From positions 1-58,931 of the forward strand of contig JAKQII010000378.1 in NCBI GenBank assembly GCA_029557535.1: a stretch of DNA of 58,931 bases. The letters are read 5' to 3'. The translations under genes were made by a program, and so were the position numbers. This stretch comes from Acidobacteriota bacterium. Its GTDB lineage: Bacteria; Acidobacteriota; Blastocatellia; Pyrinomonadales; Pyrinomonadaceae. The notes under the pieces were generated by a model. It was not told where the DNA came from and searched no databases. It saw nothing but the letters and a program-made list of their open reading frames with translations. Shown here one piece after another: positions 48,301-58,931 of the stretch (within the stretch, counting starts at the first letter, position 1; every line of letters begins with the position of its first letter).

Positions 48301-48717
48301 ATGAATCTCCAAAATATGTCTCGATCAACCCACGCAACAAATCTGATTCGAAGGACACTTTCGATCGCGATTTTCATCTTCATCCTCGGTGCGGCATCGG
48401 TCTGTTTCGGTCAGATCACCGGCGGATACGGCGCTGCCGACACCAAAGACAAGGATGTCAAAGCGGCCGCCGCCTTCGCCGTCGGCAAGCTCGCGACCGA
48501 CGAGGCCGCGACGATCAAACTGACGAAGATCGGATCGGCGCGGCTGCAGGTCGTTGCCGGGATCAATTACGAGCTTTGCTTCGAAGTAACCGTTAAACGC
48601 GGCGAACGGCGCGCAACGCGCCGGTTTGTCAAAGCCGTCGTCTACCGGAACCTGAAGAACGTCTACAAATTGACGAACTGGACGATTTCGACCGATCCGC
48701 TGTCCTGCGAGGAATGA
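48301..48717 (+). CDS. Exported cystatin-like protein A
   Basis: A 138-residue protein with a Sec signal peptide (LSIAIFIFILGAASVCFGQ). The mature part looks like a single cystatin domain: GGYGAADTKDKDVKAAAAFAVGKL as the helix-forming N-terminal part after an ITGGY start, then LQVVAGINYELCFEV, where QVVAG matches the QxVxG inhibitory loop of cystatins. The typical conserved glycine near the start is present. It would inhibit papain-like cysteine proteases outside or in the periplasm. A second copy lies at 53613-53996. The stop overlaps the start of the carboxypeptidase gene. Confidence 0.75.
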   Translation: MNLQNMSRSTHATNLIRRTLSIAIFIFILGAASVCFGQITGGYGAADTKDKDVKAAAAFAVGKLATDEAATIKLTKIGSARLQVVAGINYELCFEVTVKRGERRATRRFVKAVVYRNLKNVYKLTNWTISTDPLSCEE

Positions 48718-53612: not shown

Positions 53613-53996
53613 ATGAAGTCCACTTTTCGATTTGTTTTCCTGACGGTCGCGATGATCGTCGCGTTGGGGGCGGTCTCGGTTTGCAATGCGCAGGACGACG
53701 ACGATGAGGCCGGCGGCTATGTCACGGCGAGAGTCAACGACGCCAACGTTGTCGCGGCGGCCAATTTCGCGGTTCGTGAACGCGGACGAACAAGCGGGAC
53801 GGCCGTCCGTTTGGTCCGGATCAATTCGGCGAAACAACAGGTTGTCGCCGGAATGAACTACGAACTCTGCATGCAGGTCGGAGTGAAGTCCGGACAGAAT
53901 CAGGAATCGGTCTATTTCGTGACGGCGGTCGTGTATCAGGATCTGAAAAAGGTCTTTTCGCTGACGTCGTGGGCCAGAGAGAACTGCGACGATTGA
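53613..53996 (+). CDS. Exported cystatin-like protein B
   Basis: A 127-residue protein with a Sec signal peptide (FVFLTVAMIVALGAVSVCNAQ). After an Asp/Glu stretch the mature sequence follows cystatin-like protein A: GGYVTARVNDANVVAAANFAV, then KQQVVAGMNYELCMQV with a QQVVAG loop, and the YFVTAVVYQDLKKVFSLTSW end. The paralogues keep a Cys in the NYELC motif and one near the C terminus, suggesting a disulfide. It stands alone between the BNR-repeat gene and rplU, with a presumed promoter in the 146-bp gap upstream. Confidence 0.75.
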   Translation: MKSTFRFVFLTVAMIVALGAVSVCNAQDDDDEAGGYVTARVNDANVVAAANFAVRERGRTSGTAVRLVRINSAKQQVVAGMNYELCMQVGVKSGQNQESVYFVTAVVYQDLKKVFSLTSWARENCDD

Positions 53997-54423: not shown

Positions 54424-54497
54424 GCGATTTGCGATTTGCGAATTGCGATTTGCGATTGAAAGCGAATCCGAATTCCGAAATCCCAAATCCCAAATGG
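54424..54497 (+). repeat. Heptad-unit intergenic hairpin (copy 4, rplU-rpmA)
   Basis: Left arm (54424-54458) is four or five GATTTGC/GAATTGC units; right arm (54463-54497) has CCAAATC and GAAATCC units. It ends 4 nt before the rpmA ATG. Only partial complementarity exists between the arms, as if they have diverged. Confidence 0.7.
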
Positions 54498-54501
54498 AAT
54501 T

Positions 54502-54786
54502 ATGGCTCATAAGAAAGGTGTAGGATCATCACGCAACGGCCGCGATTCAGCGGCACAAAGATTGGGACTGAAGAAATTCGGCGGTGAGCATGTGCTGGGC
54601 GGCAACATTCTGGCCCGTCAGCGCGGAACGAAATGGAAGCCGGGCAAAAATGTCGGACGCGGTAAGGACGACACGCTGTTCTCGCTGATCGAAGGATTCG
54701 TGAAGTTTGAGGACAAAGGCCGCAAGGGCAAGTTCATCAGCGTCTACGCTGAAGGTGCGCAGGAGTTGGCTCCGAAGGCGGCCTAG
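54502..54786 (+). CDS. rpmA: 50S ribosomal protein L27
   Basis: A 94-residue L27: [21 protein letters not shown] at the start, then [20 protein letters not shown] and [15 protein letters not shown]. The N terminus reaches the peptidyl-transferase centre. There is no Shine-Dalgarno; the heptad hairpin lies at that place. A terminator follows. Confidence 0.97.
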
Positions 54787-55171: not shown

Positions 55172-55289
55172 ATTTCCACAGGTGACATGGGAGCCGGCCA
55201 CCGATTACAAAAGCGTTAAATTAAGTGATGATGGCCGTTGCGATGTTTTCCACAGAATTATCCACAGGCCTGCGGAAATCTTATCCACA
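55172..55289 (+). promoter_or_regulatory. DnaA-box-like array upstream of structured RNA copy A
   Basis: Three 9-mers close to the DnaA consensus TTATCCACA: TTTTCCACA (55246-55254), TTATCCACA (55258-55266) and TTATCCACA (55281-55289). A weaker ATTTCCACA lies at 55172-55180. The last perfect box ends 52 nt before the -35 hexamer. The spacing is repeated exactly in copy B. Confidence 0.75.
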
Positions 55290-55341
55290 GACCATGAAAA
55301 ATATTCTCGATTTATGGTGCAAAACCTAAAGTATTTTCTAC

Positions 55342-55377
55342 TTGACCGTGGAAAAAACGGGTGTAGGATGATTACAC
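55342..55377 (+). promoter_or_regulatory. Promoter of structured RNA copy A, with inverted repeat over the -10
   Basis: TTGACC (55342-55347) and TAGGAT (55364-55369) with a 16-nt spacer, preceded by an AT-rich segment like an UP element. GTGTA (55361-55365) and TACAC (55373-55377) flank the -10 as an inverted repeat, a possible operator. Predicted start of transcription is near 55376. Confidence 0.7.
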
Positions 55378-55890
55378 AGTCAAGATTGCTTACGGGCATC
55401 ATGACCGGTCCAGGGAGAGGCGAGCGGAGCGGCGACGTTCCGGTTCGAGAGCGGAAGTCAACGGAGACGGAAGCTATTACGCCTTGGATCGAAGCCGAAA
55501 GGCTTGGCTCGCGGAACGGCTGCAAAGCGGTTCCAGGCCGCCCGGATAAAAACGGGATGGCACTTGCCGGCAAGGAACCACCGGTGGGGAGCGAAAGTCG
55601 TCTACAGGCGAAAGCAGGTAGGCCTCGTTGCCGGGAACGTAACCGGCGGTGGAGGAAAGCCACCAGAAAAAAAACCTATTGGCACACCTGACCGAAAGGA
55701 AAGGGCGGGAAGCGAAAGCGGAACGCGGGTGCTGACCGGACGCGACGAGCCGTCGGACGCGGTCGGAATACAAAAATCGGCAGCCGGTAGGGTGTACATC
55801 TGAAAGCTGCCAACCTTAAGCGAAAGACTTCGGTTGGAAACTTAAGGACAAAATTAGGGGTCGTGGCGAGCAATCGTTACGGCCCCTGAT
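55376..55890 (+). ncRNA. Structured noncoding RNA, copy A (about 515 nt, GNRA-rich)
   Basis: No reading frame here has coding character, but hairpins fill the whole region. Examples: GAC/GTC plus TTCCG/CGGAA (55434-55459); AAGCC-GAAA-GGCTT (55492-55505); GGAAC/GTTCC enclosing GCT-GCAA-AGC (55513-55534); CCCG/CGGG (55541-55556); CTAC/GTAG with tandem G-A mismatches and a GAAA loop (55602-55621); GCCGG/CCGGC (55630-55647); GGTGG/CCACC (55648-55664); CCTTAAG/CTTAAGG (55814-55847). Several GAAA or GCAA tetraloops suggest tertiary contacts as in large ribozyme-like RNAs. I could not match it to RNase P RNA, tmRNA, 6S RNA, SRP RNA or a group II intron domain V. Copy B starts at the right edge of the window. 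Confidence 0.75.
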
Positions 55891-55895
55891 TTCGT
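55856..55895 (+). terminator. Terminal stem of structured RNA copy A
   Basis: AGGGGTCGT (55856-55864) pairs with ACGGCCCCT (55879-55887) over 9 bp with one G-U pair. A short GATTTCGTTT tail follows, so this is probably the end of the RNA and its terminator. Confidence 0.65.
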
Positions 55896-55900
55896 TTGGG

Positions 55901-58661: not shown

Positions 58662-58793
58662 TGTGGAAAAAAAGATATTCACAGGACAGGGCATCGCCGT
58701 TTTACTCATACTGCAGGAGCGGTCTGAGCAACGATAAGGTACGCGGATTTTTTCCACATGTTTTTCCACAAGCTCGCGGGAAAGTTATCCACA
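58662..58793 (+). promoter_or_regulatory. DnaA-box-like array upstream of structured RNA copy B
   Basis: TTTTCCACA (58750-58758), TTTTCCACA (58762-58770) and TTATCCACA (58785-58793) are each exactly 3,504 bp from the corresponding box of copy A. A reverse box (TGTGGAAAA, 58662-58670) and a weak TATTCACAG near 58677 lie further upstream. Between the boxes the sequences of the two copies differ. Confidence 0.75.
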
Positions 58794-58845
58794 GGTCCCG
58801 AGCATTTTGGATCAAGAACACATCAAAACCTAAAGTATTTTCTAC

Positions 58846-58881
58846 TTGACCTTGGAAAAAACGGGTGTAGGATGATTACAC
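58846..58881 (+). promoter_or_regulatory. Promoter of structured RNA copy B
   Basis: TTGACC (58846-58851) and TAGGAT (58868-58873), with the same 16-nt spacer and the same GTGTA/TACAC inverted repeat as copy A. The only difference from copy A in the shared 108 bp is one base at 58852. Confidence 0.7.
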
Positions 58882-58931
58882 AGTCAAGATTGCTTACGGG
58901 CATCATGACCGGTCCAGGGAGAGGCGAGCGG
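58880..58931 (+). ncRNA. Structured noncoding RNA, copy B (5' part only)
   Basis: The first 52 or so bases of a second copy, identical to copy A, cut by the right edge of the window. The shared block runs from 58824 to 58931 and corresponds to 55320-55427. Confidence 0.65.

Follow-up and report, generated by a model that had tools for sequence, protein, structure and literature searches.

To our knowledge, few bacterial RNA classes match the one described here in size and complexity. OLE RNA is a large, chromosomal, structured noncoding RNA (ncRNA) limited to some bacterial lineages, ROOL and GOLLD are large, ornate RNAs with many capped stems, and HEARO is likewise a long, structured bacterial RNA. 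Outside oriC, clusters of DnaA boxes are found at datA and DARS. The present work concerns a 58,931-nucleotide (nt) stretch of DNA from an Acidobacteriota bacterium of the family Pyrinomonadaceae (contig JAKQII010000378.1, assembly GCA_029557535.1; the whole stretch is hereafter called the window), which carries a discrete ncRNA gene at 55376 to ~55896 on the forward strand, consisting of a sigma-70 promoter, a structured body of ~515 nt and an intrinsic-terminator hairpin. Two described systems differ in location: ROOL and GOLLD genes lie in phages and prophages, many of them close to tRNA islands (PMC12286853), while the Caulobacter ncRNA CcnA, which is linked to cell-cycle control, is located at the origin, with CtrA as its presumed activator (PMC8959179).

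By size and ornateness the RNA groups with OLE, ROOL and GOLLD, but it has no Rfam match to any of them and its location is unlike that of ROOL and GOLLD, as it is chromosomal, no tRNA lies within the window, and BLASTN of phage, plasmid and E. coli collections gave no match to it. Unlike OLE RNA, it belongs to a different phylum, has a DnaA-box promoter and has no known partner gene. With regard to HEARO there was again no Rfam match, and no gene of the HNH or TnpB type was recognised among the neighbours looked at. The RNA would share with CcnA a tie to the cell cycle, but its gene lies apart from dnaA and is equipped with DnaA boxes; these are outside oriC, as in datA and DARS, but form a phased array ahead of the promoter for a large structured RNA.

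A discrete, structured and noncoding RNA gene

The initial annotation of the window, made from its letters alone, had placed an unassigned structured RNA of about 515 nt between a sigma-70-like promoter and a terminal stem of 9 base pairs (bp). The promoter and the borders of the unit were upheld, and the −35 and −10 hexamers with their 16-nt spacer place the transcription start near 55376. The terminal stem, however, was found to be about 19 bp long, with 55851-55869 paired to 55874-55892 ahead of a U-rich tail. The sense strand was more stable than dinucleotide shuffles (fold energy z-score −6.38, compared with −1.68 for the antisense strand). The abundance of GNRA-capped stems described in the annotation was also seen relative to shuffled sequences, with 11 such stems of at least 2 bp where 3.8 were expected (a number reached by 1 of 1000 shuffles) and 7 capped by GAAA or GCAA where 1.2 were expected (0 of 1000); with stems of at least 3 bp the excess was modest (4 against 1.4; 62 of 1000).

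Further confirmation of structure came from covariation in an alignment of 64 full-length homologues, for which RNAalifold gave a consensus of 136 pairs. The null was tree-based, each column's inferred changes being replayed at random on the tree, in our own implementation of the idea behind R-scape rather than R-scape itself. Against it, 35 of the 136 consensus pairs covaried at E<0.05, located in P1, P2, P2b, P3, P5, P6, P7, P10 and its side hairpins, P11, P12, P13 and the terminator, and no significant pair was obtained in five controls with partners slid by 1, 2, 3, 5 or 8 positions. A pairing count gave 90.1% of cells paired, compared with 77.1% after shuffling and 33-41% after sliding, and changes on both sides were counted in 102 of 131 pairs of the 64-sequence alignment. 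An unrestricted test of all pairs (~130,000 comparisons) returned only 5 pairs at E<=0.5, one of them at E<0.01, and was so sparse that testing was confined to the pairs that the proposed structure contains. The RNA body folds into about 14 conserved helices (Table 1), and the locus almost certainly encodes a real structured RNA of a family absent from Rfam.

Most gaps among the homologues (7448 of 8318) had a length not divisible by three, and the longest open stretch ranged from 51 to 132 codons with no open frame shared between them; the locus is therefore not protein-coding, as the annotation had held. Its failure to match a known family was likewise reproduced, since a search with Rfam 15 (4227 models) gave no match at the gathering threshold in the window or in 15 homologue loci, and chance matches only at E<=5. 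No published description of the RNA was found in the literature searched, which was thin in subscription journals.

Distribution

In BLASTN against 97 relatives, many Pyrinomonadaceae genomes yielded homologues, most of which showed 65-77% identity over long stretches. A pattern taken from the most conserved stretch and scanned across GTDB genomes retrieved 73 loci, nearly all of them labelled Pyrinomonadaceae, Blastocatellia or Acidobacteria(ota). In a profile search, all pattern loci were confirmed as full or partial members (E<=1e-49) except those of Sphingomonas and Conexibacter; the matches in the Sphingomonas metagenome-assembled genome and in Conexibacter (L051, L105), and that in L204, failed the profile and were discarded. 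A covariance model was built from the RNA core, with a strong match taken as at least 56 bits. Strong matches to this core model were found in 83 of 119 Pyrinomonadaceae genomes, normally one per genome, and among 396 genomes of the phylum nothing outside Pyrinomonadaceae exceeded 22 bits. The RNA is confined to Pyrinomonadaceae. This restriction and the phased DnaA-box array described below were missing from the initial annotation, whose proposal of a large, ornate-type RNA without a known family is otherwise supported.

DnaA boxes upstream of the promoter

Forward copies of TTWTCCACA were present upstream of the promoter in 52 of 69 loci, at a density of 6.87 per kilobase (kb) in the 300 bp upstream compared with 0.02 per kb in the flanks, or about 300-fold. 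Their positions were locked at −97, −85, −62 and −51 from the −35 hexamer, with some near −170, and nearly all were in one orientation; with steps of 12, 23 and 11 bp, the boxes lie on the same side of the helix. Relatives carry pairs of these boxes around a dnaA-like open reading frame (ORF), which in several cases has a dnaN-like ORF beside it, and few others per genome (DnaA and DnaN were recognised from the ORF sequences rather than through a family scan). As this is the arrangement expected at oriC, the boxes found at the RNA promoter are probably the species' own DnaA boxes. A near-invariant TTAAAGTATTTTCTAC was found across loci between the boxes and the −35 hexamer, and the stretch concerned (CCTAAAGTATTTTCTAC/TTAAAGTATTTTCTAC) is one that we take to resemble an UP element. 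In a second clade, which has no boxes, a different conserved A-rich stretch occupies this position. Further pairs of DnaA-type boxes spaced by 12 bp were seen at other places in the genome that the window comes from, away from the RNA (C58:15310, C249:15622 and C308:278).

Conserved core and individual helices

The core, composed of P8, P9 (GGUGGAGGnnnAGCCACC), the linker (CAACAAAAACCUA) and the closing pairs of P10 and P11, shows so little variation that covariation can barely test it; the same invariance makes it the likely functional centre of the RNA. The invariant P9 contains GGAGG followed by A-rich sequence, which resembles a Shine-Dalgarno sequence without a start codon after it. A kissing contact between the P1 loop (UUACG) and the P8 loop (CGUAA), which are complementary in the window, was considered but not supported, since the P1-loop variants UCACGG and UUAAGG destroy the complementarity and CGUAA does not change with them.

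Table 1. Features of the RNA locus; positions are those of the window.
Feature	Position	Strand	Evidence or remark
Three DnaA boxes: TTTTCCACA (55246-55254), TTATCCACA (55258-55266), TTATCCACA (55281-55289); steps of 12 and 23 bp	55246-55289	+	
Conserved UP-like element CCTAAAGTATTTTCTAC, just upstream of −35	55325-55341	+	alignment consensus
Sigma-70 promoter TTGACC-16-TAGGAT	55342-55369	+	−35 TTGACC 55342-55347; −10 TAGGAT 55364-55369
Large structured ncRNA, copy 1	55376-55896	+	fold z-score, alignment, covariation, coding tests
P1 hairpin	55379-55405	+	covarying pairs
P2 (55406-55415 with 55482-55491), enclosing P2a and P2b	55406-55491	+	covariation analysis
P2a, GNRA-type loop	55429-55438	+	inside P2
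P2b	55450-55475	+	inside P2; significant pairs
P3, GAAA tetraloop, CCGAAAGG invariant	55492-55505	+	alignment and covariation
P5, conserved loop GAUAAAAA	55537-55561	+	six significant pairs
P6	55563-55589	+	covariation
P7	55600-55623	+	covariation
Sequence-invariant core: GUU/AAC closing P8 (55630-55647), P9 (55648-55664), A-rich linker	55627-55675	+	alignment
P10 with hairpins P10a (55689-55702) and P10b (55706-55727)	55680-55734	+	covariation
P11	55736-55766	+	covariation
P12, loop GUGUACAU	55779-55811	+	covariation and loop survey
P13, UUCG-capped hairpin, poorly aligned	55812-55846	+	alignment and covariation
P14, intrinsic-terminator hairpin followed by U-rich tail	55851-55892	+	12 significant covarying pairs
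DnaA boxes of copy 2	58750-58793	+	
Copy 2, truncated by the contig end after the promoter and ~52 nt of RNA; 3' end is C341:1-39, before obgE	58824-58931	+	

Genomic neighbourhood and second copy

In the window the RNA sits between rpmA (54502-54786) and a MacB-type permease gene pair on the opposite strand, and its commonest context among homologues is rplU-rpmA-[RNA]-obgE-nadD-rsfS (L27 and MacB were identified by Pfam; ObgE, NadD, RsfS and the other neighbours by reading their sequences). In other genera the RNA lies between genes for a HIT-family hydrolase and a VOC protein, or beside permeases, a ClC channel or antisense genes, and the rpmA-obgE gap of these genera is mostly too small to hold it. 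Such unrelated neighbours favour a trans-acting RNA and make a leader function unlikely. The RNA's own promoter, its covarying terminator and its changing neighbours argue for an independent gene, and it very probably acts in trans. Among the non-bearing family members examined, most have a short rpmA-obgE gap (125-230 nt), and the others have no rpmA just upstream of obgE.

A second copy 3.5 kb away, already noted in the initial annotation, was confirmed, with 58824-58931 being 99% identical to 55320-55427 over 108 nt before the contig ends. Contig C341 opens with the last 39 nt of the RNA query (to ~55898; 100% identity) and continues into obgE, which starts at base ~158; the genes are thus probably arranged as rplU-rpmA-[RNA]-two permeases-[RNA]-obgE. 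The assembly lacks the middle of copy 2, as would be expected of two nearly identical copies. Promoter and RNA start are 99% identical between the copies, whereas their box regions have diverged (78%), a pattern that suggests gene conversion or recent duplication.

A permease pair also adjoins the RNA in L074, L112, L084 and L116. Short GATTTGCGATTTGCGAA-type repeats lie between rplU and rpmA (54428-54490), and similar sequence was seen in the rpmA-obgE gaps of the relatives L124-L126. Elsewhere in the window, a 127-residue protein (53613-53996) matches cystatin/SQAPI proteinase-inhibitor families, and the ORF at 48301-48717 resembles it by eye.

Matches to RNA-phage contigs

Pieces of the RNA occur in two IMG/VR contigs, joined to the phage genes there in the same orientation (L120:1-313 and L121:~206-391), and Pfam identified RNA-phage genes in them, namely Phage_mat-A in both and RNA_replicase_B in L121. 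RNA phages have no DNA stage; the contigs therefore derive from RNA sequencing, and the RNA fused to them was probably a transcript. In L120 the ORF on the replicase side leads directly into the RNA, with which the contig ends; in L121 the RNA lies between unrelated sequence and the phage 5' end. From the look of these joins, chimeric complementary DNA (cDNA) or assembly is the simpler reading, and the idea that the RNA is a true part of an RNA-phage genome was rejected. The contigs are most likely cDNA or assembly chimeras; they may also represent a captured element. Transcription somewhere in Pyrinomonadaceae is indirectly supported by these fusions.

Interpretation and alternatives

On balance, we lean towards the view that the locus encodes a member of a new family of large and highly structured bacterial RNAs that act in trans, with DnaA-modulated transcription and a role as scaffold or ribonucleoprotein (RNP). 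DnaA would bind the box array and modulate transcription, with activation the probable outcome, given that the boxes are placed upstream of the −35 hexamer and do not reach into the promoter; the level of the RNA would follow replication or growth, and the RNA would act in trans as a scaffold or RNP, with the nearly invariant P8-P9-linker-P10-P11 core as its binding or active site. A more specific proposal can be put forward tentatively, namely that in Pyrinomonadaceae DnaA, by way of helically phased boxes, sets the transcription of a class of large ornate RNA that serves in trans as a replication-coupled RNA machine or regulator.

Several observations count against this interpretation. No strong match was found in 36 of the 119 family genomes, some of them nearly complete, and an ObgE tree shows genomes with and without the RNA mixed in each of the two main clades of Pyrinomonadaceae, which implies that the RNA was repeatedly lost or moved and that the family can do without it. 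Control by DnaA would not extend to every bearer, as boxes are missing from the clade with HIT/VOC neighbours. Binding of DnaA to the RNA promoter is considered likely, but on a basis of sequence only, and the ~515-nt transcript in the source organism is a prediction from promoter and terminator. The consensus structure came from the same alignment that tested it, and no protein partner was identified for the RNA.

As obgE lies roughly 20-160 nt past the terminator on the same strand in the commonest arrangement, the RNA might be a cis-acting 5' leader regulating the obgE-nadD-rsfS operon. This is very unlikely, however, given that the RNA has its own covarying terminator, that it is often followed by antisense genes, and that its position upstream of obgE is not constant: other genera carry it elsewhere, with rpmA-obgE no longer holding it, and 8 tabulated genomes outside Pyrinomonadaceae have a gap of 0-118 nt without it. 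The strong enrichment and locked positions of the boxes would suit a datA-like DnaA-titration or timing locus, in which the box array is functional and the RNA secondary; conservation of the RNA by covariation and its persistence in a box-less clade make this rather improbable. We give little credence to a mobile or selfish RNA element spreading copies in the genome, despite the two copies flanking the permease pair here and the differing locations among genera, as nearly all genomes have a single strong match, no mobility gene was recognised adjacent to the RNA among the neighbours looked at, and the rpmA/obgE site is stable in one large clade.

RNA-only assemblies are known for other ornate RNAs (PMC12286853), and an RNA-only homo-oligomer like OLE, ROOL or GOLLD, held by loop-loop contacts, was also considered. 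The P12 loop (55790-55801) carries the palindrome UGUACA in 55 of 64 homologues and UGGCCA in one (L089), which is suggestive only of a possible self-kissing dimer site. The palindrome is lost in a subclade, however, and a scan of the alignment for conserved 5-nt loop-loop complementarity gave nothing above threshold, so that an assembly of this kind appears unlikely. Size and structure would also be compatible with a diverged housekeeping RNA, but RNase P RNA (RF00010), 6S RNA (RF00013), tmRNA (RF00023) and SRP RNA (RF00169) are all present elsewhere in the same genome (on contigs C99, C355, C370 and C89, respectively), which removes the usual alternatives and, with the absence of an Rfam match, leaves this explanation with virtually no probability.

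Recently solved large ornate RNAs turned out to be unexpected RNA-only assemblies. The trans-acting RNA proposed here is chromosomal and conserved across a soil bacterial family, and its promoter is seemingly wired to the replication initiator. The DnaA link would give a handle on the timing of the RNA's action and on direct experiments, which most orphan large RNAs lack.
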